This document shows, piece after piece, positions 1,411-28,204 of a stretch of 64,000 bases of DNA. The stretch is taken from positions 1-64,000 of the forward strand of contig NZ_JACJRF010000011.1 in assembly GCF_014697105.1 (NCBI RefSeq), read 5' to 3'. The notes under the pieces were generated by a model. It saw only the letters and a program-made list of their open reading frames with translations. It made no database searches and was not told the origin of the DNA. Made by a program: the position numbers and the translations under genes. Numbering within the stretch: position 1 is the first letter of the stretch; each line of letters begins with the position of its first letter. Source of the stretch: Anabaena subtropica FACHB-260. Its GTDB lineage: Bacteria > Cyanobacteriota > Cyanobacteriia > Cyanobacteriales > Nostocaceae.

Positions 1411-2277
1411 TTAGCTCTTGGTTTCAATGTCATACAACTGACATAGGGTGAGGAGTTTTTGTTTGAGGCGATCGCGCACATTCTCCGGTGATACAATCAC
1501 ACAATCTGGTGCATACTGCATAACTTCGCGGTTAAACCAAAAGGTACTGGAAACACCTCTAACTACTCGCCGTACACGTTGTCTGTCAGGTAGCCATTCA
1601 TTAGTCTTATCTTCTGGTTTGGCTTGGTAGGCAAAAGCTAAACCAGAAAATAGGTGCATTTCGACATCAATTTCATCTAATTGAGTACGCCATTCACCGT
1701 CAACTTGGGAGACTGCGGCATCAAGTATGCGGTCTAAACGAAAACACCAGTTATGTGTAAGTTCTGGGATATCCAAGTTTCCTGTTGTCTCCTCACACCA
1801 GCAATCAAGATACTCTCGCTTTTCATGGGGAGTGATTTTAGCATAGCGAATTGTAAAATTAGATACTCGTTCTGCTGCATCTTGATAGGAAAGTTGAAAG
1901 GGTTGTTGACGGAGAATATAGCGGTCTATTTGCACCCGCCAAGCTGGGAGTGTGTTCCCTAGTAAGGCTTGAATTTCGTTCCGTAGTGGGGTTGATAGTT
2001 CACCTCGTTCTAGTAATAATTCAGCAATAATTTCTGCTTGTTCAATTTGTCCAATATCGGTTAAAGCACCAATACACCGATGTAAGGCGCGGATACGTGA
2101 TTCTTGCCAATCATTATTTTTACCAATAATTAGCTGACGTTGGGCGATCGCCTTGATGAGTTTGGAGATATTGGGATCATCTCCCCACATCATACCGAAC
2201 TCACGGGCGATCGCTTCTAGTTCGGCTTTATCTCGTTCTGTTACCGACAGGGTTATAGACTGACCTTTACGACTCAT
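1411..2277 (-). CDS. WYL-domain transcriptional regulator of the I-D cas locus
   Basis: This 288-residue protein has an N-terminal DNA-binding-like segment (residues 1-60, ribbon-helix or HTH type, beginning MSRKGQSITLSVTERD) and a C-terminal region (about 110-280) resembling the WYL/DeoR-like ligand-sensing fold, ending in a WCX-like stretch (VRRVVRGVSSTFWFNREVM…). It is divergent from cas3' with 99 bp between the two start codons, as expected for a local regulator. In Synechocystis a WYL protein (Sll7009) next to a type I-D system represses crRNA accumulation from that array; the assignment here rests on this context and the domain look. No WYL triad is spelled out exactly, so the domain call is by overall pattern. 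The ATG is preceded by the shared intergenic region with two ACGGACACT copies. Confidence 0.75.
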   Translation of the reverse strand: MSRKGQSITLSVTERDKAELEAIAREFGMMWGDDPNISKLIKAIAQRQLIIGKNNDWQESRIRALHRCIGALTDIGQIEQAEIIAELLLERGELSTPLRNEIQALLGNTLPAWRVQIDRYILRQQPFQLSYQDAAERVSNFTIRYAKITPHEKREYLDCWCEETTGNLDIPELTHNWCFRLDRILDAAVSQVDGEWRTQLDEIDVEMHLFSGLAFAYQAKPEDKTNEWLPDRQRVRRVVRGVSSTFWFNREVMQYAPDCVIVSPENVRDRLKQKLLTLCQLYDIETKS

Positions 2278-2376
2278 GAAAATACACGGACACTTTTATA
2301 CAGATAAATATTGCCAATCTCTATTTTGCGTGTCAATATAGTTTTTAACAACCAGTTACGGACACTATTTAAGTTT
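2278..2376. promoter_or_regulatory. Divergent WYL-regulator/cas operon promoter region with a repeated 9-mer
   Basis: This 99-bp region between two divergent start codons must carry both promoters. ACGGACACT occurs at 2286-2294 and 2358-2366 as a direct repeat 72 bp apart, one copy next to each gene, each followed by an AT-rich stretch. GTGTC at 2330-2334 is a partial inverted half-site. This is a candidate operator for the WYL protein. The same 9-mer also occurs at 28147 and 55611, so it is not unique to the locus. Confidence 0.4.
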
Positions 2377-4593
2377 ATGTCCGAAAGTTACAAAATCACT
2401 CTCAAGCCTGTTTATTCGCAAACAGTCCCCACACCTGATGGGGTGCAAATACCTAAAGATTGGTCACTATCTTGGCATCAAGCCGCTACCTTAGAAGCAC
2501 TACGCAATCCCAATATTGACGTAATATTCAACACTGCGATGACTGGCGATGGTAAAAGTCTCGCCGGATACCTAGATATTTTGCAAAGACACTCTCCAGT
2601 TTTAGGGCTATATCCCACAAACGAACTCGCTAGAGATCAAGAAAAACAAATTAGAGGATACATTGAAAAATTTCAGCCTGAACATAAACCGCGTGTTAAT
2701 CGATTAAGTGGGCAAGAATTAGAAATTTATGCTGAAGAAGAAAACTTGAAAAAAGGAGTAGCTTTAGAAACTCGCGCTGGGCAATCTGAAATTTTGCTTA
2801 CCAATCCTGATATTTTTCATTATCTACATTATGGTGCATATTTACTATATAAAGATAATCCAGATAAACTCTGGAATAGAATAGATAAGCGTTTCAATGT
2901 CATTCTTTTTGATGAATTTCATGTGTTCAAAGCACCACAAATTGCAAGCGTAATTAACACAATGCTTTTGATTCGTCGCACTAATAGGCGTAAAAAGTTT
3001 TTATTCCTTTCTGCTACCCCAAATACCCAATTAATTGAAAGGCTTAAATTAGCAGATTTTCGCTGTCATGAAATTAATCCACTTAAAGAGAATAAATATC
3101 ATTTTCCTGATACTCTTACTGAATCCAAGCATCTAAAAACTTCAGATTGGCGAAAAGTTGTAGGGGAAATATCATTGCATTTTTTCGGTTTAGAATCTAC
3201 ACCTAAAGCTTCTGAAACTTGGTTAAAAGATAATGCAGCGTTGATTTTAGATCATTTACAAAAGTATCCAGGTAGCAAAGGCGCAATTATTCTTAATTCT
3301 ATTGCTGCTGTGAAACGATTAAAGGATTTTTTTACACCTTTTTTCCAGCCGTATAATTTCACAGTTGAAGAAAATACTGGTTTATCTGGGAAAAAAACTA
3401 AAGAAGAATCCCTAGATGCTGATTTAGTTTTGGGAACTAGCACTATTGATGTGGGTGTTGATTTCAAAATCAATTTCTTGTTTTTTGAATCAGCAGACGC
3501 AGGTAATTTTATCCAGCGTTTAGGCAGACTGGGACGACATGATGGTTATGAACGTGACGGACAGCAGATTAATTTTACTAACTTTACTGCTTATGCACTT
3601 GTCCCTGAATTTTTGGTGAAAAGGCTTTTTGAAAAAGATGAGAAGGATGAAGCACCACTATTGAAGTCAGGCGAAGTTTATGAACGTCCATTTTTTCATG
3701 ATCAAATTAGGGATAAATACCGCAAAATTAATGATTTTACAGGCTATTACTTTAAATGGGGTGTTGTTCAATCTATGCGACTGGTTCGACAGTTGGGACA
3801 TCCTAATATTAAACAGCAATATGCAGCAGGTAGTCAGGAAGCACTAAAGAAAGATTGTGAGATAGTTTTCAGCACTGACAAAAGAAAAGCCAGTCTTAAA
3901 GCAGCGTTTGTCCGTAGCAAGGAATGGGAAGAAAAATGGCACGAACTTTCACGAACAGATAAGGGAAATCCTATTTTAGAAGAGGCTGTGAGTTTTCGGG
4001 GTAAGAGTCCTTTACTGTGTGGAATTTACGACACTACTGAGAAAAATGAGGTGGATAAGTTCAAAACTTACGATTTACCAGGAATTCTCAGCAACTTGGA
4101 AATTGAACCGATGAAGGGGACAGAATTTGAACGACTGCGACAAGCAACAGCAGAACGCACAGATACAACTATTCCCAAAGGCAGATTTAAAAACTGTCTA
4201 GGATTTATGAAATTACTTCGCTATCGAGAAGAAAGACTAGATTGGAAATTTACTTATCCTGGGGACTTGAAACCCTTTGCTGATACTTGGGATGTGCAGG
4301 TGTTGTTAGGTATTCAGGTTTGGCAACCTGCAAACTATTGGATTAGTGAAATTAACAAGCAATTGAAGAAACAGGCATTAGTTAGTTATCTGCTGCCTTT
4401 TCCCTTAGAGAGAGTACGTCAGCAAGGACGATTGCCAATGCACTTTCAGATTTACCCAATTAGTGACCAATATAGTGTTTTAGATAATACACCACCATAC
4501 TGCATTGCCTTCGGGCAGTCTGCACTATTGCTAGATACCTTGACACATTGGTTTAAGAGTAAAGGGGATGAGATATGGATAACGCCATGTTGA
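2377..4593 (+). CDS. cas3': Cas3' helicase, type I-D
   Basis: This is the superfamily 2 DNA helicase that unwinds target DNA for type I-D interference. From ATG 2377 (738 residues) the motifs are Walker A GDGKS at about 57-61, DEFH (a DEAH-box variant) at 179-182, SATP at 212-215 and QRLGRLGR at 380-387. No HD nuclease domain is visible, as expected for I-D, where the HD domain sits on Cas10d. The open frame extends upstream to 2311, but the extra 22 residues look unlike the family and run into the promoter region, so 2377 is preferred. First gene of the cas operon. The stop codon touches an antisense CRISPR-repeat-like element. Confidence 0.9.
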   Translation: MSESYKITLKPVYSQTVPTPDGVQIPKDWSLSWHQAATLEALRNPNIDVIFNTAMTGDGKSLAGYLDILQRHSPVLGLYPTNELARDQEKQIRGYIEKFQPEHKPRVNRLSGQELEIYAEEENLKKGVALETRAGQSEILLTNPDIFHYLHYGAYLLYKDNPDKLWNRIDKRFNVILFDEFHVFKAPQIASVINTMLLIRRTNRRKKFLFLSATPNTQLIERLKLADFRCHEINPLKENKYHFPDTLTESKHLKTSDWRKVVGEISLHFFGLESTPKASETWLKDNAALILDHLQKYPGSKGAIILNSIAAVKRLKDFFTPFFQPYNFTVEENTGLSGKKTKEESLDADLVLGTSTIDVGVDFKINFLFFESADAGNFIQRLGRLGRHDGYERDGQQINFTNFTAYALVPEFLVKRLFEKDEKDEAPLLKSGEVYERPFFHDQIRDKYRKINDFTGYYFKWGVVQSMRLVRQLGHPNIKQQYAAGSQEALKKDCEIVFSTDKRKASLKAAFVRSKEWEEKWHELSRTDKGNPILEEAVSFRGKSPLLCGIYDTTEKNEVDKFKTYDLPGILSNLEIEPMKGTEFERLRQATAERTDTTIPKGRFKNCLGFMKLLRYREERLDWKFTYPGDLKPFADTWDVQVLLGIQVWQPANYWISEINKQLKKQALVSYLLPFPLERVRQQGRLPMHFQIYPISDQYSVLDNTPPYCIAFGQSALLLDTLTHWFKSKGDEIWITPC

Positions 4594-5113: not shown

Positions 5114-5126
5114 AATATTGTCAATT

Positions 5127-6146
5127 ATGAGTAATTCCATTTCTGACGATTACAGAAATCTACTTATGGAAGTACAACAACGGATTCGTTCAGCCCAGTA
5201 CGAAGCATTAAAGGCAGTTAATCGGGAAATGATTAACCTGTATTGGGATATTGGGCAAATGATTGTTATCAAACAACAGGATGCTAGTTGGGGTAAATCA
5301 GTAGTAGAACAGCTAGCAAAAGACTTACAAGCAGAGTTTCCTGGTATTAGTGGGTTTTCTGTTCGAAATATCTGGAATATGCGGAATTTTTACGTCACAT
5401 ATAGCCAAAAAGAAAAACTGCAACCAATGGTTGCAGAAATTGGATGGACTCACAATTTGGTCATTTTAGAAAAATGCAAAGATGACTTAGAACGAGAATT
5501 TTACATTAGAATGACTCGGAAGTTTGGCTGGACAAAAAACGTTTTAATTCACCAAATTGAAAATCAAACTTATGAAAAAACTCTGCTAAATCAAACTAAT
5601 TTTGATCAAAGTATTTCAGCAGAGATCCGTAACCAATTAAAGTTAGCAGTTAAAGATGAATATACTTTTGATTTTTTGGAATTAGCAGATGAACACAGCG
5701 AACGACAGCTAGAAGAGTCAATTTTAGCAAAAGTTCAACCTTTCTTACAAGAAATGGGTGGAATATTTGCCTTTATTGGTAGCCAATATCGTTTAGAAGT
5801 TGATGATGAAGAATATTTTATAGATATCCTATTATATCATCGCCGTTTAAAGTGTTTGGTGGCAATAGAATTAAAAATTGGTAAGTTTTTACCTGAATAT
5901 ATTGGCAAAATGCAGTTTTATTTAGCTGTTTTAGATAATACGGTAAAGCTACCAGAAGAAAATCCTTCTATTGGCATTATTCTTTGTAAATCCAAACAGA
6001 GAACTATTGTTGAATATGCACTAAAGGAATCTAATAAACCAATTGGTGTTGCAACTTACCAAATAGTTTCTAAAGTACCAAAAGAATTAAAAAATCAGCT
6101 TCCAGATCCAGAACAAGTTGCTAGATTGCTAGAAGGATTTGAATGA
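5127..6146 (+). CDS. DUF1016 (YhcG-type) PDDEXK nuclease-domain protein
   Basis: This 339-residue protein has two parts. Residues about 10-155 match the DUF1016 N-terminal domain (INLYWDIGQMI…WGKSVVEQLAKDLQ…GFSVRNIWNMRNFY). Residues about 185-310 carry a PD-(D/E)XK nuclease core with acidic DDEEYFID, then VAIELKIG, the E-x-K catalytic pair. Such proteins occur near restriction-modification and other defence genes. It is not a standard Cas protein yet sits inside the I-D operon between cas3' and cas10d. A TTG at 5118 could add three residues; ATG 5127 is preferred, though neither has a strong ribosome-binding site. Role in the CRISPR system unknown: it could be a passenger, an auxiliary DNase or a second defence gene sharing the promoter. 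Confidence 0.85.
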   Translation: MSNSISDDYRNLLMEVQQRIRSAQYEALKAVNREMINLYWDIGQMIVIKQQDASWGKSVVEQLAKDLQAEFPGISGFSVRNIWNMRNFYVTYSQKEKLQPMVAEIGWTHNLVILEKCKDDLEREFYIRMTRKFGWTKNVLIHQIENQTYEKTLLNQTNFDQSISAEIRNQLKLAVKDEYTFDFLELADEHSERQLEESILAKVQPFLQEMGGIFAFIGSQYRLEVDDEEYFIDILLYHRRLKCLVAIELKIGKFLPEYIGKMQFYLAVLDNTVKLPEENPSIGIILCKSKQRTIVEYALKESNKPIGVATYQIVSKVPKELKNQLPDPEQVARLLEGFE

Positions 6147-6210: not shown

Positions 6211-9200
6211 ATGGCTAAAAAAAGTAAGAAATCAGATGAATATCAACAACTATCACTCTTAGAAGCAGAAACAGAAAATGATTCAACCGCCGAAATATCA
6301 GATGATGATTGGATGTCTGGAGATGATTCTGACTTTCAAGAAACATCTAATCTAAAAGTCGAAACACAAACAGCAGAACTCTTAACTCTCAAGTTACTTC
6401 AAGATGCAATTAAATCAGAAAATGACGATGATTTAATTATGCAGGAATTTAGTGATTACGTTTTACCCAATCTTTTACGGGTAGCAGTTGGAGTGACAGC
6501 AAAAGGTGGAAAATTTTTTGATTATCTTGATAAAAAGAGAGAAAAGGAGATAGAAAATTTCCACAAAAATAATTTAGGAAAAAGTCACAAAATAAAAGAG
6601 CCAAAAAAACTTGATCGAAGAAATGCAGGCGATCAATCTTTGAATACTCATTTACTCAATGGGTTACTACCAGCTAATTTAATAGAACGTTGTCTAAATA
6701 AGCTTGATACCACTGCAAAAAGGGTAATTCAAGAACAAGAAAGGCGCTTATTAATTGCTGGGTTTATTTTACATGATTTTGAAAAGTTTGATTATCGGCT
6801 ATTTCCTAAAATGCCAGATAATTATAAAGCAATTAGCCAAGATAAAGAACAAGACATTCGCAAGTTATCTGTAGATGCCCACCGCGAAATTATAGATGTT
6901 ATAGTCTGTGAATTAGCTCTTGATAAATTTGTTAGTCCTGATGAACCAACAGCATGGCAAGAATATCGAGATGATTTGTTATTTATTGCTTACAATGCCC
7001 AGCGCCGAAATGATACAAATCTCAATGTTTCTGAGCATGGTTTACAACCAATAATTGATGATTATATTCTGATATGTCTTGCTGATTTAACTTGTTTAGC
7101 TGATTTACTTTCCTCAGTTATTAAACATCCTCAAGATGCAGAACACCAGACATTAAATGGAATTCTCCACAGCCTCAGTGATGGACAATTAAAGTTTACC
7201 TATCACAGCATTGCTGAGAATCGTGGTGTTTTAACTAATGTGGTGAATAATGCTTTAATTCAGGCTCATACTAGTCTCAATACTGATGAGCATACCTACT
7301 ATGAACCTTTGTTATATCTGCCAACAGGCGTAATTTACTTAGCTTCGCGCAATGCTCTAGCTATCTCGCCGGAAGATTTACCAGACCGTGTAGTTAACAG
7401 TATTAAATCGCTTTGTGCAGGTCAATTACGCCTCAGACAAACAGGATTTGGTAGAGATGGCAAAGGCATGAAATATGCCGAATATTACAACTTATTTTTT
7501 GATGATATAGGCTTGATGAAAGTAGCCTTAGATGCTACATTACGCATCTTAAACCCTAATAAAGCCTCTGTTGCTAAAAGTCGCAGTGACAATCTGAATA
7601 AGTTTCAGCAACAAAATGTTTTATCTGCTGATTATGACTTCACATTTGAAGATGATATCCGCATTGATCAAATAGCAGAGTTTGGTGATTTAGTTAGCCG
7701 AAAGATTTGGAAAGAGACAGTTAATCGCATTGATTCTGCTCGTAAAAAAGATAAAAAGCTGCCAGCAGTTCCCGATTTTGATTTAACTCATAAAGTTGCA
7801 GAATTTTGGAATTTAGCAGAATGTTTACCCCAAATTAGAGAAATTCAACGTATTAATGAAAGTCTGAAAGAAAATAAGTTAAAGGGAAATACGGGAGGAG
7901 TACCTTATGAATGGTATTATCTGGCAGCTAAGTATTTAGAACATCATCCAGGAATTGAAGATGTACGCGAAGCTTGTCAGCAAGTCATTGACTATTTGTC
8001 AACCTTAATTTCTCCGATAATTTCTCAGTATCAATTACCTGATGGTTGGGATGATTTAAGGCTTTGGGTAAAACGAGTTGTCATGTTACCAGGCACTAAT
8101 CAAGAGTCATCTGTTAAAACTCAAGTTGAAACATTTCTAAATGAGTTAGACAATTACAATGCTGCGAAAAAAGCAGGGCGAGGGAAACAATTAATCTGCT
8201 CAATTTCTCATTCTGCTTACACGGTTACTGAGCAAATGGAATCAGCAGTTTTATTTACCCCTCAAGTTTATACAAACAAGCAAATGTTAGGAGGTTCCAA
8301 CGCTAAACGCAATATCTCCAGTATTGCAGGTGTGGAGATGATGCTGAGGCAAATCTTGATGAATCAAACTCAAGCTGTAGGTAAGCGATTTGAAGATGGA
8401 AAATATCGCTATCTCTATTTTTATCCTACTTATTACTTTACTCCAGAGACTAACAAGTTTTTGCAAAAAGCATACAACGGCATTGCTCAAACTCGCTTTG
8501 ATACCAGCGTTCGTAATCATTTTATCAGTAAAGATTTACAGGCTGATTTGGGGCGTGATCGCTACCAAAGTGTAGATAGTTTCTTAATCGATGAAAACCT
8601 CCAACGTGACAAGGATCGCACCTTTAAACTTTCCTATCCTGAAGACCAGCCTTTAACATTTTACTTCATGGCACTCCCGCCAGGAAGAGACAGCACCGAT
8701 ACAGAATCTTGGGTAATGCCAACTTGGTTAGCGTTTGCTTTCCCGATGATTTTAGATGTTAAAACTGTAGTTTCTGAGTCACCGATTCCACCTTTTAATG
8801 ATGGGGCTGAATTTGAGGAAAGCGTTTTCCTTGATAGTGCGCCTCATGCTTTCCGTTCTTTAGTAAGGCGCGATCGCTTCCGTCTTGACTACATCCTCGA
8901 AGGTTGGAATGAAAACGGCATCCAATACCCAGCACCTTTAAATGTGCTTACCGCCGCTTACGCCATTCATTTAGATGTGAATGCTAGGCAAGGTAAGTCT
9001 GGTTACGATGCCAACTGGGGGAGATTTACAGAACTGGCTAAAGATTTTGAAACCAGTCCATTGTACGTTTTTTCTTATCTCAATCGCTGGGTGCGTAACC
9101 AAAAAGTTGATACTGCAAGCTTGAGTAAAATCAAGCTTTATGCTCACCACTTTTACCCTTGTTTTGACCCTTATGTTAAATATGATTTTCAACTGGAGAA

Positions 9201-9690
9201 GTGGACTATGACAGAAGAATCACACTTGCATCATCCTAAAATATTAACTGACCTTTACCGTAAATTTTACCGAGCAAAATCTAGTAAAGGAAAACCAATC
9301 AAGTCTAATGCTATCTTGAAACCAATTGATGAGGCTGCTGAGACTATTATCAAAGCCGATAAAAATTTTTTTCACGGTGAAGTATTAGTTGATGCTGTAG
9401 CTGCAAAAATTTTCAAACTGATGGAGCGAGTGCGTAACTCCACAGCAGAGGGACGTTGGGTTATTGTCCATCGTGATGAAGAAAGAGAGGCGATTTTAGA
9501 TTTTTCACGACACTTTGTAGTAGAAGTATTTGAGAAAGCATTTGCAGGCGATCGCGCTCGTTTAGCTGGCCGTCAACTGAATCTAATCAAAGATACTTGC
9601 GAGTTTTTATATCGCTTAGAGAATGATAAAGAACGCCATGATAAAGGTAATAAACCTGATAATGACATACAAGATGAAAATGAAGATTAA
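6211..9690 (+). CDS. cas10d: Cas10d (Csc3), type I-D large subunit with HD nuclease
   Basis: This 1159-residue protein is the hallmark subunit of type I-D. It forms the large subunit of the interference complex and carries the HD nuclease that cuts target DNA. An H-D pair (ILHDFEKF) is at residues 188-189, with another conserved-looking His at 147 (THLLNGLL). No GGDD cyclase motif is seen, as expected for Cas10d as opposed to type III Cas10. The N-terminal 60 residues are very acidic and probably disordered, as is the tail. Length fits the family (about 900-1200). It is followed by a hairpin and then csc2, csc1 and cas6, the other complex genes. Confidence 0.93.
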   Translation: MAKKSKKSDEYQQLSLLEAETENDSTAEISDDDWMSGDDSDFQETSNLKVETQTAELLTLKLLQDAIKSENDDDLIMQEFSDYVLPNLLRVAVGVTAKGGKFFDYLDKKREKEIENFHKNNLGKSHKIKEPKKLDRRNAGDQSLNTHLLNGLLPANLIERCLNKLDTTAKRVIQEQERRLLIAGFILHDFEKFDYRLFPKMPDNYKAISQDKEQDIRKLSVDAHREIIDVIVCELALDKFVSPDEPTAWQEYRDDLLFIAYNAQRRNDTNLNVSEHGLQPIIDDYILICLADLTCLADLLSSVIKHPQDAEHQTLNGILHSLSDGQLKFTYHSIAENRGVLTNVVNNALIQAHTSLNTDEHTYYEPLLYLPTGVIYLASRNALAISPEDLPDRVVNSIKSLCAGQLRLRQTGFGRDGKGMKYAEYYNLFFDDIGLMKVALDATLRILNPNKASVAKSRSDNLNKFQQQNVLSADYDFTFEDDIRIDQIAEFGDLVSRKIWKETVNRIDSARKKDKKLPAVPDFDLTHKVAEFWNLAECLPQIREIQRINESLKENKLKGNTGGVPYEWYYLAAKYLEHHPGIEDVREACQQVIDYLSTLISPIISQYQLPDGWDDLRLWVKRVVMLPGTNQESSVKTQVETFLNELDNYNAAKKAGRGKQLICSISHSAYTVTEQMESAVLFTPQVYTNKQMLGGSNAKRNISSIAGVEMMLRQILMNQTQAVGKRFEDGKYRYLYFYPTYYFTPETNKFLQKAYNGIAQTRFDTSVRNHFISKDLQADLGRDRYQSVDSFLIDENLQRDKDRTFKLSYPEDQPLTFYFMALPPGRDSTDTESWVMPTWLAFAFPMILDVKTVVSESPIPPFNDGAEFEESVFLDSAPHAFRSLVRRDRFRLDYILEGWNENGIQYPAPLNVLTAAYAIHLDVNARQGKSGYDANWGRFTELAKDFETSPLYVFSYLNRWVRNQKVDTASLSKIKLYAHHFYPCFDPYVKYDFQLEKWTMTEESHLHHPKILTDLYRKFYRAKSSKGKPIKSNAILKPIDEAAETIIKADKNFFHGEVLVDAVAAKIFKLMERVRNSTAEGRWVIVHRDEEREAILDFSRHFVVEVFEKAFAGDRARLAGRQLNLIKDTCEFLYRLENDKERHDKGNKPDNDIQDENED

Positions 9691-9720: not shown

Positions 9721-9780
9721 AATGATTCTGCATACAAAACAATCAAGCAATTCTTTCATGTATTTAAATTGGGGAAAAAT

Positions 9781-10815
9781 ATGTCACTTTTGAAAACTGT
9801 TGAAAGCAAATTTTTTCAATCCGAAATCCCCTATAAACCAATGGGTAAGTATGTTCATTTCCTGAGTATTCGTATTACAGAATCTTATCCTTTGTTTCAA
9901 ACAGATTCAGAACTTAATAAAGCACGGGTAAGAGCCGGAATCAAAGATAAAACTACAATTAGTCGTTTATCAATGTTCAAACGTAAGCAATCAACACCAG
10001 AACGTTTAGTAGGTCGAGAATTACTAAGAAACTATGGTTTAATGACTGCTGAAGAATGTGAGTATAACGTAGCTTTTGCAATGGATAATCCTGATTGCAT
10101 TATTTACGGGTTTGCTATTGGTGATTCTGGCTCTGAAAAATCCAAGGTTGTGGTAGATACGGCATTTTCAATTACATCTTTTGATGAATCACATGAAACC
10201 TTTACTCTCAATGCTCCCTATGAAAATGGCACAATGGCTGCAAAAGGAGAAAAAAAATCAGATGGTAAACTAGATGGTGAAATAGGTACAGTAACAGCCA
10301 GAATTAACCAACAAGATCATATCCTGCCGCAAGTTTTCTTTCCTAGTATTGTCACCTTGAAAGACCCCACTGAAGCTAGCTTCCTTTACGTTTTTAATAA
10401 CATTCTGCGAACTCGTCATTATGGAGCGCAAACCACCCGTACAGGCCGCGTGAGAAATGAGTTAATTGGTGTTGTATTTGCGGACGGAGAAATTACTAGT
10501 AACTTGCGTTGGACTCAGGCAATATATGACCAAATGAAATCTAATAATACTTTAAATGCTCCCGATCCACTAGATGAAGATGATGTAATCACTGCTGCAA
10601 AAAACGCTATTGAGGCATTAATGGCTGATGAGTTTATTGTTCACACAGATTTCATTGGTGATGCTTTTGTATCCCTAATTAATGAAGTTAAAACTTTAAC
10701 AGGAAGTGAGAAAGGAATTCAAGCAATTTTACAAAAAGCTGATGCAGAAGCTAAAGATTATGCCAAGAAGCATATTAGCAAGAAGAAAACTACTGCTAAA
10801 GCGGAGAAAGAGTAA
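9781..10815 (+). CDS. csc2: Csc2 (Cas7-type backbone subunit), type I-D
   Basis: This 344-residue protein is the Cas7-family protein that coats the crRNA spacer in the type I-D complex. Recognisable features are the N-terminal SLLKTVESKFFQSEIPYKPMGKYVHF and the central NNILRTRHYGAQTTRTGRVRNELIGV, typical of Csc2. The ATG at 9781 is preceded by GGGGAAAAAT, a good ribosome-binding site; an upstream TTG at 9769 would overlap that site and is rejected. The C-terminal 30 residues are Lys/Ala rich. The stop codon overlaps the csc1 start by one base (TAATG), indicating coupled translation. Confidence 0.93.
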   Translation: MSLLKTVESKFFQSEIPYKPMGKYVHFLSIRITESYPLFQTDSELNKARVRAGIKDKTTISRLSMFKRKQSTPERLVGRELLRNYGLMTAEECEYNVAFAMDNPDCIIYGFAIGDSGSEKSKVVVDTAFSITSFDESHETFTLNAPYENGTMAAKGEKKSDGKLDGEIGTVTARINQQDHILPQVFFPSIVTLKDPTEASFLYVFNNILRTRHYGAQTTRTGRVRNELIGVVFADGEITSNLRWTQAIYDQMKSNNTLNAPDPLDEDDVITAAKNAIEALMADEFIVHTDFIGDAFVSLINEVKTLTGSEKGIQAILQKADAEAKDYAKKHISKKKTTAKAEKE

Positions 10816-11522
10816 TGGTGTTTATTTATCGCTGTCAAATAGAACTACATGACAGCCTTTATTTCGCAACTCGTGAAATCGGGCGATTGTATGAAACAGA
10901 GCCAATAATCCACAATTACGCTCTCTGTTATGCACTGGGTTTAGTTGATAGCCAAATCTACTCTACTACCGTTGCTGAAGAACATTCGTACCGTTATTTT
11001 CGTCCTGAACAAGTACCCAAATATGAGGAGCATTTAACGCCACTTAATCAACAGGGAATTTATGTTACTCCTGCATTAGCTATTAGTTATTCTGCTATTC
11101 TCAATACATGGAAGTATGCTAACAATAACTATCATGTGGAGATGGAGAAAACGCAGAAAAACATCCCTAGTTTTGGGAGAACCAAAGAAATAGCACCAGA
11201 AAGTCAATTTGAGTTTTTTGTGATTTCTCAAAAAGAACTCAAATTACCAAAATGGCTTCGCTTGGGTAAGTGGATGAGTAAAGCTGAGTTAACAGTTGAG
11301 CAATTACCTAAACCTCAAAATGCTGAAGGTTTATTCACCTGCAAACATCCCTTAAATCCTTTAGATGTCATGTTCACCAATCAAGTGATTAGCTACGATG
11401 TGGTAAATATGCCTCCAGTTAGTTTAATTCAGAATGTGCAAATGCGAGGGCAATATTACCAATTTACTGAGATGAAAGACATAAAAATTCCGGCTCGAAT
11501 GGCTTATCATTTTCGTAGTTAA
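10815..11522 (+). CDS. csc1: Csc1 (Cas5-type subunit), type I-D
   Basis: This 235-residue protein is the Cas5-family subunit that caps the 5' handle of the crRNA. The start MVFIYRCQIELHDSLYFATREIGRLYETEPIIHNYAL is characteristic of Csc1. It begins on the last base of the csc2 stop codon, so the pair is translationally coupled. The next gene starts eight bases after its stop. Confidence 0.92.
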   Translation: MVFIYRCQIELHDSLYFATREIGRLYETEPIIHNYALCYALGLVDSQIYSTTVAEEHSYRYFRPEQVPKYEEHLTPLNQQGIYVTPALAISYSAILNTWKYANNNYHVEMEKTQKNIPSFGRTKEIAPESQFEFFVISQKELKLPKWLRLGKWMSKAELTVEQLPKPQNAEGLFTCKHPLNPLDVMFTNQVISYDVVNMPPVSLIQNVQMRGQYYQFTEMKDIKIPARMAYHFRS

Positions 11523-11530: not shown

Positions 11531-12154
11531 GTGCGATCGCCTGTGAAACACTATCAGCAACAACCAAACGCCTTCCCCAGCGAATACTTGAACAACCTGT
11601 GGGGAGAAATCCAAGCTTGTCCTTACTTTGCTATCAACAACCTCAACCGTGATTTTGTGGGTACGAAAGGATTTTCGGTGGTGTTTAGGCGATCGCATAT
11701 CTCCACGGTAGAGCAAAAATTCCCCTACTTCCAGTCTTACCTAGATTTGGCTCTCCAACCTGAATGTAACGCTTTTTACCTCAATCCCTTACTACTAAAG
11801 GAAGGTTCTCGCGTCGATCCACACATAGATCGCTCTCTGCGTTCCTACTGCAAAACTATTGAACCACCGATGTTTGTTAGTGTTCTTTATGTGCGTGTAC
11901 CAGAAAATATGGAAGGGGGAGAACTGGTACTCAAGTCGCACAAACGCCAACTGGGACAAATTAAGCCACAGACGAATACTTTACTCCACTTTCAAGGTGA
12001 TTTAACACACTCGGTTAATGCCGTAAAAACACCAGGAAATCGCCTAAGTTTGGTTTGCGAACAGTATAGTTTAAGTGACGAAGAACTTGCAGACATCCCA
12101 GAGTTTACCATCGAGTCGAGAGTTTTTCAGTCCACAAGCAAAAAACGCAAGTAA
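11531..12154 (+). CDS. 2OG-Fe(II) oxygenase (prolyl-hydroxylase-like) inside the cas operon
   Basis: This 207-residue protein has the full metal and cosubstrate set of a 2-oxoglutarate/Fe(II) dioxygenase: H98-x-D100 (DPHIDRS), distal H160 (DLTHSV) and R171 (GNRLSL) as the likely 2OG-binding residue. GGELVL before the distal His matches the double-stranded beta-helix of prolyl-4-hydroxylase-like enzymes. The start is uncertain: GTG 11531 lies inside a HIP1 octamer and GTG 11543 is an alternative. It is eight bases after csc1 and 38 before cas6, separated from cas6 by four tandem heptamers, so it is probably in the same transcript. It is not a standard Cas protein. Substrate unknown: candidates are a Cas protein residue or a nucleic-acid base. 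Confidence 0.85.
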   Translation: MRSPVKHYQQQPNAFPSEYLNNLWGEIQACPYFAINNLNRDFVGTKGFSVVFRRSHISTVEQKFPYFQSYLDLALQPECNAFYLNPLLLKEGSRVDPHIDRSLRSYCKTIEPPMFVSVLYVRVPENMEGGELVLKSHKRQLGQIKPQTNTLLHFQGDLTHSVNAVKTPGNRLSLVCEQYSLSDEELADIPEFTIESRVFQSTSKKRK

Positions 12155-12192: not shown

Positions 12193-13020
12193 ATGCCCCA
12201 CAGCTTAGTTCTTAACCTACTTCCCCAGTCACCCATTCCCCCGCAGTATCTCACAGGCAGACATCTCCACGCCCTATTTTTAACATTAGTTAGTTCTGTA
12301 GATCGAGAATTAGGCGATCGCCTCCACGATTCCGACGCAGATAAAGCCTTCACCCTTTCACCTCTGCAAATTGCTTTTACTAGGGGGAGTAAGGGATCAC
12401 AACTGCAATACTTCCATCAACAACAAATTTCCGCCGGAACTCCTTGTTGGTGGCGTATCTCTCTATTAGATGACACCCTTTTTAGCCAACTTACTCAACT
12501 GTGGCTAAATCTCAACCCCGATCATCCTTGGCATCTTGGCCCGGCTAACCTATATATTACAAGCATTCAAGGCACACCCCAATCTACCCAACCTTGGGCA
12601 AATGCTACTACTTACGCTCAATTATATGAGCAAGCCAGCGAGAGCGATCGCACTTTTAACTTTAGCTTCGCCACACCCACAGCCTTCCGCCAGGGAAAGT
12701 TTGACACAACCCTCCCTACTAGAGAATGTGTATTTAATTCCCTCCTTTCTCGTTGGCATAAATATAGTGGTATAGAATTTTCTCAAATTGCCATAGAATC
12801 AATTTTCCCTTCATTTCTTAATATTCACACAGAAATATTAGCCGATTCCCGTAGTAAATTTATCGGCATTCTTGGACAGGTAAATTATCGAATTTTAGGT
12901 GATGTAGAACCAATCCAAATTAAACAAATCAATGCTTTGGCTAACTTTGCTTTATATGCAGGTGTAGGACGTAAAACTACAATGGGTATGGGAATGATGC
13001 GCCGACTATATTCTACGTGA
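12193..13020 (+). CDS. cas6: Cas6 crRNA-processing endoribonuclease
   Basis: This 275-residue RAMP protein cuts the array transcript within each repeat to release crRNAs with an 8-nt 5' handle. The C-terminal glycine-rich loop GVGRKTTMGMGMMR (about 257-270) is the Cas6 signature. The N-terminal PPQYLTGRHLHALFLTLV is also typical, with a His at about 25 that could be catalytic. The HIP1 octamer at about 12313 lies in the coding region. It is between the oxygenase gene and cas4 in the operon, close to the array whose hairpin repeats are its expected substrate. Confidence 0.88.
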   Translation: MPHSLVLNLLPQSPIPPQYLTGRHLHALFLTLVSSVDRELGDRLHDSDADKAFTLSPLQIAFTRGSKGSQLQYFHQQQISAGTPCWWRISLLDDTLFSQLTQLWLNLNPDHPWHLGPANLYITSIQGTPQSTQPWANATTYAQLYEQASESDRTFNFSFATPTAFRQGKFDTTLPTRECVFNSLLSRWHKYSGIEFSQIAIESIFPSFLNIHTEILADSRSKFIGILGQVNYRILGDVEPIQIKQINALANFALYAGVGRKTTMGMGMMRRLYST

Positions 13021-13058: not shown

Positions 13059-13649
13059 ATGAATACCGAATACATTTCTATTGCGGCATTAAATCAATAT
13101 GCCTATTGTTCCCATCGTTGTTGGCGGATGTTTTGCGCAGGTGAATTTATTAATAATGAATATACCATAGAAGGCACATCTTTACACGATCGCGTCCACA
13201 CTACCAGCGAAAATCAGCGAGAAGAAACCTGGCAAGTTCGAGCAATTTGGTTGAAGTCAGATAAGTACAAACTTATCGGTAAATCAGATTTAATTGAAGC
13301 CGCAGACGGTCAATTTTATCCAGTAGAATATAAGCGAGGACGTAAAGGTGAATGGGATAATGATGAGTTGCAAGTTTGCGCTCAAGCCTTATGTTTGGAA
13401 GAAATGACAGGGCAAAATATTACTACTGGATATATCTATTATGCCCATTCCCATCAACGGCAATTAGTAGAGATAAATCAAGAATTAAGAGAAAGTGCGA
13501 TCGCTACAATTAAAGCAGTCACAAATTTAATCACAACAGGCATAATGCCTACACCAATTTATAGCAAACGCTGTCAAGGATGTAGTCTTAATTCTCAATG
13601 TTTACCTAAGGCTACTGATAGAGTTAGAACTTACCAAGAAGCTAATTAA
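13059..13649 (+). CDS. cas4: Cas4 RecB-like exonuclease
   Basis: This 196-residue iron-sulfur nuclease trims prespacers and selects PAM-containing ends during adaptation. Visible residues are C17 and C21 near the N-terminus, H43, the RecB-type acid D77 (GKSD), E90 and K92 (VEYKRGR), and the C-terminal cysteine cluster CQGCSLNSQC (about 176-185), which with an N-terminal Cys would hold a 4Fe-4S cluster. Length is normal. Placed directly before cas1-cas2, it completes the adaptation module. Confidence 0.93.
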   Translation: MNTEYISIAALNQYAYCSHRCWRMFCAGEFINNEYTIEGTSLHDRVHTTSENQREETWQVRAIWLKSDKYKLIGKSDLIEAADGQFYPVEYKRGRKGEWDNDELQVCAQALCLEEMTGQNITTGYIYYAHSHQRQLVEINQELRESAIATIKAVTNLITTGIMPTPIYSKRCQGCSLNSQCLPKATDRVRTYQEAN

Positions 13650-13728: not shown

Positions 13729-14730
13729 ATGGGAACTGTTTACGTTACACAGGATGATTCATTTATCAGTAAGGTTGATGAACGTATCAATGTTAAATTT
13801 GAAAAAAAGACAATTTTAGATGTACCTTTAATTAAAATTGATGGGTTAGTAGTGATGGGAAGGGCTAGTATTTCTCCGGCTGCTATTTTTGAACTCATCG
13901 ATAAAAAAATACCTCTCACATTCCTCACAAATAACGGTAAGTATCTCGCTAGTTTAGAACCAGAAATGGGTAAAAACATTTTCGTCCGTACTGCTCAATG
14001 GAAAGCGGCTGGAGAATCACCACAAGCTATTCATGTTACCCAAGGATTTGTCAGAGGTAAACTCAAAAATTACCGTCATACTTTATTAGAAGCCCAACGC
14101 CGATATGAGGTTGATTTAAATAGTAATATTAATCAAATATCAAATGCGATCGCCTCTTTAGAAAAATCCAATTCCATCGATAGCATCAGAGGCTTTGAAG
14201 GTGCTGGTAGTGCTGCATATTTTGGTTGTTTTAATCAACTTATCCGAGTTGACAATTTCAGCTTCAATACCCGCAACCGTCGCCCACCAATAGATCCGGT
14301 TAATTCACTTTTAAGTTTAGGATATTCCTTACTACGTCACGATATTCAAGGAGCCTTAAATATTGTTGGCTTCGATCCCTATTTAGGATACTTACATACA
14401 GAGCGATACGGTAGACCCTCTCTAGCTTTAGATTTAATGGAAGAGTTTCGACCTTTAATAGTAGATGCTGTTGTTCTCACTGCAATTAATCGCCGGATGC
14501 TTTCACCAAAAGACTTTATTACTGAACCTATCAGCAATGCAGTTTCACTTACTAAAGAAGGGTTACACATCTTCTTGAGATTATATCAAGAAAAGAAACA
14601 AACTCAATTCAAGCATCCAGTCATGCAGAAGAAATACACCTATCAAGAAACATTTGCTATTCAAGCCCGCCTTCTTGCTAAATACCTACTGGGAGAAATC
14701 GAAAAATATCCACCCTTAATTATGAAGTAA
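13729..14730 (+). CDS. cas1: Cas1 integrase
   Basis: This 333-residue metal-dependent integrase inserts new spacers at the leader end of the array together with Cas2. The catalytic residues are visible: E157 (RGFEGAGSAAYF), H223 (LHTERYGRPSL) and D235 (ALDLMEEFRP). Length and the N-terminal GTVYVTQDDSFISKVDERI match cyanobacterial Cas1. A ribosome-binding site (AGGTGA) lies just upstream of ATG 13729. cas2 follows after 40 bases. Confidence 0.96.
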   Translation: MGTVYVTQDDSFISKVDERINVKFEKKTILDVPLIKIDGLVVMGRASISPAAIFELIDKKIPLTFLTNNGKYLASLEPEMGKNIFVRTAQWKAAGESPQAIHVTQGFVRGKLKNYRHTLLEAQRRYEVDLNSNINQISNAIASLEKSNSIDSIRGFEGAGSAAYFGCFNQLIRVDNFSFNTRNRRPPIDPVNSLLSLGYSLLRHDIQGALNIVGFDPYLGYLHTERYGRPSLALDLMEEFRPLIVDAVVLTAINRRMLSPKDFITEPISNAVSLTKEGLHIFLRLYQEKKQTQFKHPVMQKKYTYQETFAIQARLLAKYLLGEIEKYPPLIMK

Positions 14731-14770: not shown

Positions 14771-15043
14771 ATGTATTTAGTCATTTCTTACGATGTACCA
14801 GAAGATAAGCGTCGTACCAAAATTCACAAGGTTCTCAAATCTTATGGACAGTGGATGCAGTATTCTGTTTTTGAGTGTGACCTAACACCAACTCAGTATG
14901 CTAAACTGCGATCGCGTCTAGCCAAACTCATCAAACCAGAGCAAGACAGTATCCGTTTTTACTGTCTCTGTGCCTGCTGTCAAGGTAAAATTGAGCGCAT
15001 CGGCGGCGAAATGCCAATGGACACCACTGTATTTTTCGCTTAA
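14771..15043 (+). CDS. cas2: Cas2
   Basis: This 90-residue ferredoxin-fold protein forms the core dimer of the Cas1-Cas2 integrase. MYLVISYDVPEDKRRTKIHKVL, with D8 after the first beta strand, is the standard Cas2 start. It is the last protein gene before the leader and array, whose first repeat begins 257 bases after its stop. Confidence 0.96.
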   Translation: MYLVISYDVPEDKRRTKIHKVLKSYGQWMQYSVFECDLTPTQYAKLRSRLAKLIKPEQDSIRFYCLCACCQGKIERIGGEMPMDTTVFFA

Positions 15044-15299: not shown

Positions 15300-17723
15300 G
15301 TTTCTATTAACATTAATCCCTATCAGGGATTGAAACTAAAATATCAGAAGTAACTAACTGTATTTTACTAGTTTCTATTAACATTAATCCCTATCAGGGA
15401 TTGAAACATGGCTGAAGACTTTGAATCAAAATTAACCGAGTGTTTCTATTAACATTAATCCCTATCAGGGATTGAAACTTAGTTTTCAACAAATTTCAGA
15501 TAGCTGAAGAAATTGTTTCTATTAACATTAATCCCTATCAGGGATTGAAACTAGTTGATTTCTTTTAGAACCTCCGAAAAGTCTCGTTTCTATTAACATT
15601 AATCCCTATCAGGGATTGAAACGCCAGAAATAAGTTTGCCTCAATTACCAGAGTTCCAACTGTTTCTATTAACATTAATCCCTATCAGGGATTGAAACAG
15701 CATCGTAACCGATAACATTATGAAAACACCAACGTTTCTATTAACATTAATCCCTATCAGGGATTGAAACCTAGTATATATACACAAGATACAGATTTGA
15801 CAGAATGTTTCTATTAACATTAATCCCTATCAGGGATTGAAACAAAGGTAGAATTTTGATATTGTAATAATCGTAAGGGTTTCTATTAACATTAATCCCT
15901 ATCAGGGATTGAAACTCTTTCTTAGTCCAGATATAGATACACGTTCAGGTTTCTATTAACATTAATCCCTATCAGGGATTGAAACCCGCTTTAACAGCTT
16001 CTTCAACATCAGTAAGTTGTTTCTATTAACATTAATCCCTATCAGGGATTGAAACTCAGCACCCGTAGAAGAAAGATTTTTTGCAAGTCGTTTCTATTAA
16101 CATTAATCCCTATCAGGGATTGAAACTTGATAATACAGCTTATCATTTTTAATTTTACATTGTTTCTATTAACATTAATCCCTATCAGGGATTGAAACTT
16201 CGCAGTTGTCGCTTACTGCGATTTTCTAAAAATGTTTCTATTAACATTAATCCCTATCAGGGATTGAAACAAGCACCTTAGCCCGTCCATTACCGCAAAC
16301 TTTCATGTTTCTATTAACATTAATCCCTATCAGGGATTGAAACTTTTTATTCAGAAATCAACTTGATGGAAATAATTGTTTCTATTAACATTAATCCCTA
16401 TCAGGGATTGAAACGTGAGACTACTGGGGATTCGTTAGGGTTCATCAAGTTTCTATTAACATTAATCCCTATCAGGGATTGAAACGCGGTATTGTGGTCT
16501 ATGGTGCAAGAACTCTTAGTTTCTATTAACATTAATCCCTATCAGGGATTGAAACGTTGTAGACCCACATTTCCGCAACTCCTGTAGAAACGTTTCTATT
16601 AACATTAATCCCTATCAGGGATTGAAACCCGAGTAACCGTGAATGGTAGACGGTGGGGCAAAAGTTTCTATTAACATTAATCCCTATCAGGGATTGAAAC
16701 AAGATACCCTAGTTGTTTTTATTACATATTGTAGTTTCTATTAACATTAATCCCTATCAGGGATTGAAACATCAAACATAACAATGGTTATACCACTAGG
16801 TACGTTTCTATTAACATTAATCCCTATCAGGGATTGAAACGAGTACAAGGTATCCAATATGGTATCGTGGCAACGTTTCTATTAACATTAATCCCTATCA
16901 GGGATTGAAACAGCCTAGTAATATCTGAAAACCCTACAAATAAAGGTTTCTATTAACATTAATCCCTATCAGGGATTGAAACGAGACTATTAATTCTTGG
17001 ACATTTGCCGCCATGATGTTTCTATTAACATTAATCCCTATCAGGGATTGAAACAGATAACGATAATTCAACACAGCAAAACGACACCACAGAGGTTTCT
17101 ATTAACATTAATCCCTATCAGGGATTGAAACAAGGGTCTGAGGCAGTACACAAGGATGTGCGACACATCACGTTTCTATTAACATTAATCCCTATCAGGG
17201 ATTGAAACATTTTTTTGATTTAAATTACCTACTTAAATCATGTTTCGTTTCTATTAACATTAATCCCTATCAGGGATTGAAACAAATTCCAGAAATTGCA
17301 CCTCAATTAGTTGACCAGAGTTTCTATTAACATTAATCCCTATCAGGGATTGAAACGATGCTTATGTGAATTGGGTAAATAAGTTTCCTTTAAAGTTTCT
17401 ATTAACATTAATCCCTATCAGGGATTGAAACCCATTGTGGGCTACAACGTTCAATATGACCGCTCTAGAGTTTCTATTAACATTAATCCCTATCAGGGAT
17501 TGAAACCTCGTTATCCCATAGTAACGGCTCCGACTTCCAGGTTTCTATTAACATTAATCCCTATCAGGGATTGAAACCCTGCGTAGCCCTGGTGTATTTT
17601 CGGATAACCTAGTTTCTATTAACATTAATCCCTATCAGGGATTGAAACTTACTTCTCATGGTTGCAATGATGTGAGATGAACAACCATCTTTATTAACAC
17701 CAATAGCTATCAGGTAGTAAAAC
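15300..17723 (+). CRISPR. CRISPR array, type I-D, 33 exact repeats plus one degenerate terminal repeat
   Basis: The 37-nt repeat begins GTTTCTATTAACATT and ends ATCAGGGATTGAAAC, with an inner hairpin AATCCCT-ATC-AGGGATT and the 3' handle ATTGAAAC. I traced 33 copies, starting at 15300, 15371, 15442, 15515, 15586 and so on to 17612, and found no mismatch by eye. A 34th copy at 17687-17723 matches 27 of 37 bases. The 33 spacers are 33-40 nt long (mostly 34-36; the longest are near the trailer end). I saw no duplicate spacer. Transcription is on the plus strand from the leader at 15044, with the degenerate repeat marking the old end. Confidence 0.98.
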
Positions 17724-19816: not shown

Positions 19817-21871
19817 TTACTGCCCATTAATAATAGTTGCAGGCTCAAATTGCTCAGGCTGAGGCTGAGGTGCAGGATTGAGAAATTGTTGCCAAATTTT
19901 AATTTGCTCTTGCGCCGCACGATAAGCCGAACTACCACGTGGAATCAACCGAGCAGTTTCAATCGCCTTAGACATATCAGAACTGCCTTCAGAACGGGCA
20001 ATATCTAATATTTGCTGACCCCATTGGTCGATAGCGATATTTGCATCCATCCGCAAGAGACTTCTATTAGATACCTGATCAGCCAACCGTATTGCTTCTA
20101 CCAAAGCTTGTGAAGTACCAGCCGCCGCAACTTCCCTAGCACGGTTCCAATTTTCTCTGGCGCGAATTTGCGATCGCCAATCATCAATTATTGTCTGCGC
20201 TTCACCAGAAAGCGCCCGCCCAGAGGATGCTATTGGTTGCGCTGCATTAATAGCCGCAGATAAATCACCCCGTGCTGCAAATTCCCGCGCCTGATCCAAA
20301 TAAGGTTGGTCTTGGATGCGCTGTACCCTTCCTACCCAAGTCCTAATTCTTCTGCGTGCTTCTGGATACAATGCCCGACCTTGACGAATTTGACTAGCTT
20401 CAGCGATCGCCGCTTGCAAAGAGTTAATATCACTTAACAAGGCAATTTGTTCAGCCCGTTCCAAGTAGGGTCTATCTTCAATAGTCTCAACTTGCGATTG
20501 CCAACGGTTAATATTTTGTCTCGCCTCTGAACCACGAGGATTACTAGTAGGAATCATCTGCGCTTCAGCGATCGCTCCTACTAAATCGTTGATTGTACCT
20601 TGATTAGCTAATAACTGCGCCTTTTCTAAACGGGCAACATCTTCAATTTCCAACTGCCAACGGCTAATTAACTGTTGAGCCTTATCATAGTTTGGTCGAG
20701 ACGCGTTAATTTGTTGTGCTTGAGTAATTGCTGTCTCTAACCCGGCAATATTACCCAACCAAGCATTTCTTTGAGCATCAGCTAAAGCCATAAAATCTTC
20801 AACTTCCGTCTGCAATCCAGTACTTTCAGGAATTTGTCTGGCAATATCTAAAGCTGTATCTGCATCCCGTTCATCCATTTTCGCCTGTGCCAAATCCAGC
20901 ATCTTGCGCCCAAATGCTGGAATTGATTCTTGAGCTTTGCGATACAAATAACTTTTTGGTTCAACAGACGCAGCCAGTTTAATTGCTTCTAGTAAGTTAT
21001 CTACCACTTTACTATCAGCCAATCTTTGGGCTTTATCCAACTTGTCCACATCCTCCTTAGAAGAAGTGATGATGGCGTTGAGTTCATCGTATTTGGCACT
21101 TGCCCAATATTTATTATCTACACGCAGCAATTTAGACGCTACCATAAACGCCGATTGCCAGCGCTGTTGTCGCAGTTCCTCTTCAGCTTGTGTGTATATA
21201 CCCTCAGCCTTATCCCATGTCGTCTGCCATTTAGCGATTTGCTCGTCTACCAACTTATAAGCCGAGAGGTCTTGAGGTATTTTCTGCGCTGTAGCGATCG
21301 CCTGTTCTAAATTCCCTGCCTGAAAGCTCTGGTCAGCTAACCGCAAAATTTCTTTTGACCACTCCTCTGTAAAGCGTTCAATTTCACCGTGTAGTGGGTG
21401 GTCTTGTGGCAGTTGCTTGATTAAAGCGATCGCCTGCAACAAGTCATCAACAGTTTGTTTTGAAGCTGCCAACTGAGCGCAATGTATCCGCACCGAAGCA
21501 CTTGCTAAAGGCCAGAATATCGAAGGACAATTGGGTGCAGTCGGCAACTTTAATAGCATTGCCATTGCCAAAAACCCTACACCACCAGGAATGAGCGTTA
21601 ATAATAAAACCCATCCCACCCAACCTTTCATCCACCGTGGCAACTTAACAAAACTCTTTTTAGTATCTTCAGTTACTTTACTTTCCCGATCTATAAGTAA
21701 TCCTTCGGAATCATAAATTATTCGCTGCTTCACCGGATTAGAAGAACCAGGAGCTGGGACACCAAATGCTTGGGTGTCACCGACTTGTGGCGATCGGGAT
21801 ACACCGTCCATTTCATCTGGTTTTCTTCCTCTGGTTGGATGCCAACTTTCTGGGATATCCCGCTCTGTCAT
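19817..21871 (-). CDS. Membrane-anchored helical-repeat protein of unknown function
   Basis: This 684-residue protein has a cytoplasmic-looking Pro/Gly-rich N-terminus (1-80), one hydrophobic segment at 83-107 (WVGWVLLLTLIPGGVGFLAM) and a long helical region from about 110 to 665 built of degenerate units of about 45-50 residues. Each unit has the pattern AI..A..I……A…I..W, for example LEQAIATAQKIPQ, LQAAIAEASQIRQ, LSAAINAAQPIAS. This resembles TPR-like or solenoid scaffolds. The C-terminus is Pro/Gln rich. I do not recognise a named family; automated annotation may call it a chromosome-segregation ATPase because of helical composition, but no ATPase motif is present. It may bind proteins at the cytoplasmic membrane. 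Confidence 0.75.
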   Translation of the reverse strand: MTERDIPESWHPTRGRKPDEMDGVSRSPQVGDTQAFGVPAPGSSNPVKQRIIYDSEGLLIDRESKVTEDTKKSFVKLPRWMKGWVGWVLLLTLIPGGVGFLAMAMLLKLPTAPNCPSIFWPLASASVRIHCAQLAASKQTVDDLLQAIALIKQLPQDHPLHGEIERFTEEWSKEILRLADQSFQAGNLEQAIATAQKIPQDLSAYKLVDEQIAKWQTTWDKAEGIYTQAEEELRQQRWQSAFMVASKLLRVDNKYWASAKYDELNAIITSSKEDVDKLDKAQRLADSKVVDNLLEAIKLAASVEPKSYLYRKAQESIPAFGRKMLDLAQAKMDERDADTALDIARQIPESTGLQTEVEDFMALADAQRNAWLGNIAGLETAITQAQQINASRPNYDKAQQLISRWQLEIEDVARLEKAQLLANQGTINDLVGAIAEAQMIPTSNPRGSEARQNINRWQSQVETIEDRPYLERAEQIALLSDINSLQAAIAEASQIRQGRALYPEARRRIRTWVGRVQRIQDQPYLDQAREFAARGDLSAAINAAQPIASSGRALSGEAQTIIDDWRSQIRARENWNRAREVAAAGTSQALVEAIRLADQVSNRSLLRMDANIAIDQWGQQILDIARSEGSSDMSKAIETARLIPRGSSAYRAAQEQIKIWQQFLNPAPQPQPEQFEPATIINGQ

Positions 21872-22929: not shown

Positions 22930-23042
22930 GAAGAACCTTACCAAATAATAATTTCTTAACAAATGCCCTGGCTGTTAAGCTAGAGGCACAAAACGTTAAA
23001 CTATTATAACAAAACTTAACTTATACAAAACTTACCCAAGTG

Positions 23043-27494: not shown

Positions 27495-28204
27495 AACTTG
27501 CTAGTTTAGCTTTTAGGTTAAAGTAAAATAAATCAACCGTTAGGAGGACAAAAATATGCTAAAATTAATCCCTCCAAAACATTTTGTGTGCGTCATAATG
27601 ATAAAGGAAGGAACTGAAAACTCCTAAGCTTGATTTTGTGAAGTTATCAACTTGACCATCCTCCTACCTCTACAAGTGGATGATCTCAATGTTTAACTAA
27701 ACCTAACAATCACATTGAGATAGACCTCGAGTACAAATTGCCTGTTTCGGATTGAACCTATAGAAAATTATTAAAAGAAATTGCCTTGTGATTAAAACCC
27801 AGCAAAATCAGGCCATTTTAATTCAAAACCTCCATAATGCGGCTCATCGGCTTAGTCCTTGGGTATCACCGTAAATACAAACCGGGTATTGCAGATACTC
27901 TGGTCTAGAGTTGCAGCAAGTTAAAGCGCTTTTGGGAGGAGAAGTGAGGAAAAGAAACAAAATTCAGACATATCTCAAACAACTGCTGTTGGGGAATCGC
28001 CTGCATCGCTGGATAGAAATGCCCTTGACTGGCAATTGGGGGTTATTACCCCCCTTGTCAAAATCGCACTCTCCAGCTTCAATTGCTGCGTTTGCCATTG
28101 CCTGTAAATAATCAGGTGAGCATAGAGGATAAGTTCCCAAACGGCTACGGACACTAACTGTAGTGTCATCTAAAAAATTTAACCAGGTTGACAAAGGTAG
28201 AGGC
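27495..28204. other. 710-bp intergenic region before rpoB
   Basis: This region holds the rpoB promoter and a long leader. GGGGG-TTATTA-CCCCC (28038-28054), flanked by TTGAC/GTCAA, forms a strong extended hairpin. ACGGACACT occurs at 28147. An 80-codon antisense frame (28206-27964) and a 66-codon plus-strand frame (27911-28111) overlap here, but neither looks like a real protein. Confidence 0.5.

Follow-up and report, generated by a model that had tools for sequence, protein, structure and literature searches.

A 2OG-Fe(II) oxygenase gene inside a cyanobacterial type I-D CRISPR-Cas locus is very probably a resident neighbor and not a part of the CRISPR system

Candidate accessory genes of CRISPR-Cas systems are usually nominated via guilt by association, and the oxygenase family of the current study stands on such a list. 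Its genomic setting is a type I-D locus. Parts of a 2023 review describe the effector genes of type I-D as shuffled and its adaptation genes and/or cas6 as conserved (PMC10212523). The window, i.e. the whole stretch of 64,000 nucleotides from Anabaena subtropica FACHB-260 that was analysed (contig NZ_JACJRF010000011.1, positions 1 to 64,000), harbors the gene order WYL-like regulator, cas3', YhcG nuclease, cas10d, csc2, csc1, oxygenase, cas6, cas4, cas1, cas2 and array (Table 1). An NCBIfam scan backs cas3', cas10d, csc2, csc1, cas6, cas4 and cas1. The locus shares these genes, cas2, the WYL-like regulator and the array with the type I-D CRISPR-Cas system of the Synechocystis type, but it contains one additional gene between csc1 and cas6.

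Table 1. Features of the I-D locus and its right flank (window coordinates)
Feature	Position	Strand	Basis or remark
WYL/WCX regulator-like gene, upstream of cas3'	1411..2277	-	WCX above cut-off, WYL below
cas3' helicase, I-D type	2311..4593	+	NCBIfam TIGR03158
YhcG/DUF1016 PD-(D/E)XK nuclease, between cas3' and cas10d	5118..6146	+	profile match; PADLOC candidate family PDC-S02
cas10d (csc3)	6211..9690	+	NCBIfam TIGR03174
csc2 (cas7d)	9769..10815	+	profile match incl. NCBIfam
csc1 (cas5d)	10815..11522	+	NCBIfam TIGR03159
2OG-Fe(II) oxygenase gene	11531..12154	+	ORF of 207 aa, GTG start; PF13640
cas6	12193..13020	+	profile match incl. NCBIfam
cas4	13059..13649	+	profile match incl. NCBIfam
cas1	13729..14730	+	profile match incl. 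NCBIfam
cas2	14771..15043	+	ORF; homologues at same place in relatives
CRISPR array, 33 copies of a 37-base repeat	15300..17660 (right end approximate)	+	downstream of cas2
f13, conserved right-flank gene; adjoins oxygenase in CRISPR-free loci	19817..21871	-	flank comparison
Hsp33 (hslO) homologue, right flank	22024..22962	-	flank comparison; name presumed
hisD homologue, right flank	24308..25609	-	flank comparison; name presumed
rpoB homologue, end of compared right flank	28163..31558	+	flank comparison; name presumed

The additional gene encodes a member of Pfam family PF13640 (2OG-FeII_Oxy_3; 34.2 bits, cut-off 27). The initial annotation had placed a complete H98-x-D100, H160, R171 set in the protein, and these residues, the metal triad and the 2OG arginine of the PF13640 motif, are indeed found at those positions and do not vary in any of the 113 aligned homologues. 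The ORF coordinates likewise confirm the distances of eight bases from the end of csc1 and of 38 bases to the start of cas6. The Pfam match, the invariant residues and a dN/dS of about 0.08 rule out a chance ORF. Translation probably begins with the GTG at 11543 (VKHYQ) and omits residues 1-4: the alignments of many homologues begin at residue 5, several homologues start with GTG there, and residues 1-4 have a pLDDT below 50 in the AlphaFold model. With this start, the distance to csc1 would be 20 bases. The genome of the window holds a single copy, bar one match at E 0.14.

The neighboring YhcG gene has copies of up to 98-99% identity at the same place in some relatives (L018, L090, L171) and no match in others, a distribution that looks as if it had moved as a unit. 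Just upstream, at 4868-5113, lies an ORF of 81 aa with no confident family, whose only matches among the loci searched for it are in L018, L176 (32%) and L180.

In a genome collection, 16 of 68 related loci have cas6 close downstream of the oxygenase and one more has a cas6 fragment. Homologues occur in 65 of 292 genomes of a phylum-wide draw and in 177 of 217 genomes of the window's family (E 1e-15 or better), 167 of which have a single match. From these 177, 100 loci, taken among the better matches and thus not a random draw, were fetched with about 10 kb per side where contigs allowed. We scored a gene as nested if it lies between a full-length csc1 (cas3' in one module) and a full-length cas6, which applies to 49 of the 100. 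The nested loci comprise 31 with the standard I-D module, 12 with a Cas10d of 40-47% identity and six with a still more divergent module, and some are incomplete (e.g. L124 without cas4 and cas1). Among the 51 others, three have only a full cas6, four have cas relics and 44 showed no cas gene at that step, although two of the latter (G216, G160) do hold a cas6 remnant. Altogether, the oxygenase adjoins cas6 in 78 of 146 decided family genomes (the 100 fetched, the window and 45 judged by coordinates; 31 of the 177 are left undecided). Its presence there in so many genomes and genera documents that the arrangement is old. The gene is found at I-D loci and also at sites distant from cas genes, so the proposed connection with I-D does not collapse into an occurrence at unrelated loci only. 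The same gene occupies the csc1-cas6 gap in many relatives, yet 19 I-D loci chosen for a close csc1 and cas6 without an oxygenase document that it can be missing.

The oxygenase holds the same position next to each of three I-D interference modules. In the third one, read in L024, csc1, csc2 and cas3' are of I-D type according to curated profiles, well above the cut-offs, and the Cas10d-like protein, with 26 bits, stays below its cut-off of 60. This divergent module (Cas10d-like, csc2, csc1, cas3') extends over L024:3123-9908.

A consensus scan of positions 11200-12400 found neither a plus-strand promoter nor a terminator, which makes it plausible that the oxygenase is co-transcribed with csc1 and cas6 in the I-D operon. 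The tight csc1-oxygenase spacing of the window is not kept among relatives. In 30 of the 49 nested loci the oxygenase frame overruns the start codon of cas6, and this overlap makes translational coupling to cas6 likely in many relatives; it is not expected in the window with its 38 intervening bases. The overlap results in protein tails such as KKRKYAS, whereas others end with KKRK. The oxygenases of G216 and G155 carry such an overlap tail although only a remnant of cas6 is left there, which suggests former nesting.

Many I-D loci harbor a different gene in the same gap. The product of f16 has about 136 aa (150 in L083), and the gene is convergent to csc1 in the csc1-oxygenase or the csc1-cas6 interval; in L083 it lies antisense at 9163-9615, between csc1 and the oxygenase. 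It occurs in 53 of 217 family genomes, in 16 of the 100 fetched loci and in 13 of 20 loci with a missing or broken oxygenase (three as fragments; G097 plus the 19 mentioned above), and it was not found in the genome of the window. Copies away from the oxygenase are both of those in G214 and the one in G203. No Pfam model matches f16 above its cut-off. It may be a better candidate for an I-D accessory than the oxygenase.

The right flank of the window runs f13, Hsp33, f22, UspA, hisD, rpsT, tatD and rpoB, where Hsp33, UspA, hisD, rpsT, tatD and rpoB are names that we presume from the sequence. The genes from f13 to tatD follow in the same order directly after the oxygenase in six CRISPR-free loci (L075 and L084 from the genus of the window, plus L092, L109, L112 and L154), five of which have rpoB within reach. 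The same flank follows the cassette in the nested loci L124 (to rpoB) and L125 (to tatD), and in L083, L089, L093 and L096 as far as the fetched DNA extends; in the remaining loci it is rearranged or out of reach. On the left side, the order M16 peptidase, fructosamine kinase, oxygenase is common to many CRISPR-free loci, the kinase gene lies just upstream of the oxygenase in 18 of the 100 fetched loci, and in the nested L124 it is located to the left of the cassette. The left flank of the window differs by a thioredoxin-reductase-like gene, and the fructosamine kinase gene lies on another contig. Judging from this synteny, the oxygenase is most likely a chromosomal resident, with the I-D cassette around it at a conserved site. 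Plasmid-borne relatives (67% and 45% identity) have unlike, non-cas neighbors. A second 2OG oxygenase gene adjoins the 45% homologue on a Pseudanabaena plasmid (L004:15043-17390), and the vicinity includes a lanthipeptide synthetase and Nif11-type precursors; a peptide-modifying role is possible there.

The maximum-likelihood tree of the oxygenase (113 rows) groups most genera together whatever the context, and nested and CRISPR-free copies are mixed within genera g1, g7, g37 and g39. The genus label requires 39 changes on the tree (minimum 33 for 34 genera), compared with a mean of 75.5 and a lowest value of 71 in shuffles. Nested-or-relic versus neither requires 17 changes (shuffled mean 33.1), counts in which parsimony pools gain and loss. 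The tree thus follows genus and not CRISPR context, which suggests mostly vertical inheritance. Two sequences of genus g39 (G158 and G164) are placed inside the g38 group, so some transfer is likely as well. These results bear on the proposal of a recent passenger, i.e. a gene inserted into an operon that was already there. The oxygenase is missing from some I-D loci in other lineages, as such an insertion would predict, but nesting in many genera, the mostly vertical inheritance and the chromosomal site shared with CRISPR-free copies largely contradict it. We reject the recent arrival, which has become very improbable, because nesting is common to many genera; of the three options raised in the initial annotation, a passenger nevertheless fits best.

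The other two options would tie the enzyme to the CRISPR system, and here the decisive observation is that oxygenase and I-D are retained and lost independently of one another. Across the 217 family genomes, the presence of the oxygenase is not significantly associated with that of a close I-D csc1 (107/70/20/20, odds ratio 1.53, p 0.29), in a 2x2 test that ignores phylogeny and takes as close a best match of E 1e-60 or better, with divergent csc1 scored as absent. In 68 genomes the oxygenase is not beside cas6; a close csc1 is present elsewhere in 29 of them and absent from 39, and the gene is therefore found apart from I-D as well as with it.

The oxygenase is also not lost when I-D is lost, since nine of the 51 not fully nested loci have an intact oxygenase with cas remnants within 1.5 kb. 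These are a displaced cas6 of 527 bases in G159, with cas4, cas1 and cas2 matches further on; pieces of csc1 and cas10d in G075; pieces of csc1 and csc2 beside a whole cas6 in G139; csc1 pieces in G155 and G151; pieces of cas6 and cas1 in G001; 122 bases of cas6 in G160; and, as short matches, 85 bases of the cas6 start in G216 and a 60-base cas3' piece to the left with a 55-base cas1 piece to the right in G103. The other 42 loci have no counted cas remnant. Hits to cas6 positions 48-88 (G104, G128, G151, G155) were dropped before counting because the cas6 frames used run back into the 3' end of the oxygenase. A similar uncertainty removed G002 and G213; a csc1 match of 37 bases in G096 was likewise not counted, nor was G147, where both cas6 and cas4 are complete.

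Conversely, I-D loci do not need the oxygenase. In G097 it persists between csc1 and cas6 as two broken pieces with stops, and cas3', cas10d, csc2, csc1, cas6, cas4, cas1 and cas2 all match without stops around it. The 19 chosen loci show no trace of the gene at E 0.01. All eight cas genes are stop-free in nine of them (G174, G172, G028, G059, G012, G069, G071, G215, G171), and in each of the other ten, one or more cas genes are split, interrupted by a stop, absent or cut off. Genome-wide, no oxygenase copy is present at the same threshold in six of the nine (G174, G172, G028, G069, G071, G215). Two gene-free loci (G215, G189) have upstream the fructosamine kinase gene, the frequent left neighbor of the oxygenase. 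The constraint on the oxygenase is alike inside and outside CRISPR, as estimated from overlapping pairs within genera with dS 0.05-1.5: median dN/dS is 0.076 for nested (114 pairs), 0.084 for non-nested (66) and 0.088 for mixed pairs (151), and 0.102 for cas6, 0.101 for csc1, 0.101 for cas4 and 0.085 for cas1.

The independent loss in both directions and the non-significant co-occurrence rule out a strict component of I-D, and the suggested hydroxylation of a Cas protein finds no support. A weaker version makes the enzyme an optional accessory, useful and dispensable, that acts as a hydroxylase on a Cas protein (its neighbors being Cas6 and Csc1) or tunes I-D to the level of oxygen or 2-oxoglutarate. 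The old and tight linkage to cas6 has held through module swaps, a persistence that could also reflect a beneficial, non-essential function; the catalytic residues are invariant, and the full length matches a PADLOC model listed as CRISPR-associated (7.4e-87). We nevertheless regard this version as improbable given that the intact gene outlives cas decay and I-D outlives its loss, CRISPR-free copies are under like constraint, significant co-occurrence is absent, and those 29 genomes keep the oxygenase away from cas6 despite a close csc1 elsewhere.

Very probably, then, the oxygenase is a resident, mostly vertically inherited gene with a job of its own, a long-standing neighbor and not a part of CRISPR. 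The type I-D cassette would lie around it, with the interference genes to the left and cas6-cas4-cas1-cas2-array to the right, and the oxygenase would probably be transcribed with the operon without either needing the other. The oxygenase could remain in place when the cassette decays or exchanges its interference module, and I-D loci could likewise persist in its absence. The association is strong, old and common to many genera, yet the natural losses both ways indicate that the parts are independent, which is a caution for neighborhood-based annotation.

The nested gene might even serve as a fixed seam for the exchange of I-D interference modules, an idea that we put forward tentatively and consider rather doubtful. 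The module type requires 16 changes among nested rows versus a shuffled mean of 16.5, i.e. it is distributed as if random, and genus g15 holds all three modules. In cells that keep the oxygenase, its borders with csc1 and cas6 would provide shared homology, so that the left side could receive another whole interference module and the right side, with cas6 and the adaptation genes, would be retained. Resident genes would thereby be possible anchors for CRISPR module exchange.

Comparison with characterized enzymes gives an idea of the job of the oxygenase. In a Foldseek search with the AlphaFold model (mean pLDDT 90.6), P4H/PHD structures are nearest in fold (ranks 1, 3, 5 and 7-10, TM 0.54-0.58), and PiuC takes ranks 2, 4 and 6. 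The best match is the prolyl-4-hydroxylase of Pseudomonas putida (4j25; 4iw3 with EF-Tu; E 2e-9, TM about 0.58), which is of similar size but only 15-18% identical. The PKHD-type enzymes PiuC (9ghl, 9qn1) and Sbal_3634 (3dkq) are also high in the Foldseek list and, with the family profile, are the only PDB sequence matches below 0.001 (about 5e-4 to 6e-4), but their identity is about 20%. The NCBIfam model of Fe2+-dependent dioxygenases NF003975 gives 16.3 bits against a cut-off of 180. From these relationships we infer that the oxygenase most likely hydroxylates a protein or a small molecule, as do P4H and PKHD-type enzymes. Outside the nested group, no neighbor that hints at the substrate is common to more than five of 29 loci examined.

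The same comparison bears on the proposed alteration of crRNA or DNA bases by AlkB/TET-like chemistry. The HxD...H...R set is present, and the fold search lists ALKBH7 at rank 50. The AlkB signature is R-x5-R including the 2OG arginine. In the oxygenase, R171 is followed by E at 177, both invariant in the 113 rows. The structure comparison thus favored prolyl-4-hydroxylase and PiuC over AlkB, and we reject an AlkB-like enzyme on the fold ranking and the missing second arginine; the lack of significant co-occurrence with I-D and the independent loss likewise argue against a nucleic acid substrate of this kind, which is hardly credible.

The papers listed by literature searches include none about this gene. 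The word "oxygenase" does not occur in the main text of three CRISPR papers (PMC10212523, PMC11903412, PMC12669027) and of PMC4012209, nor does "2OG" in the main text of the PADLOC paper (PMC8565338). The family itself is already known and listed, as residues 6-197 match the PADLOC-DB profile "2OG" (PDLC01587) of the CRISPR-associated list. This profile may go back to a 2018 neighborhood survey by Shmakov et al. It implies a link to CRISPR, but every one of the 36 aligned homologues matches it, whether nested or not, including those without nearby cas genes, and its listing is better explained by nesting than by function.
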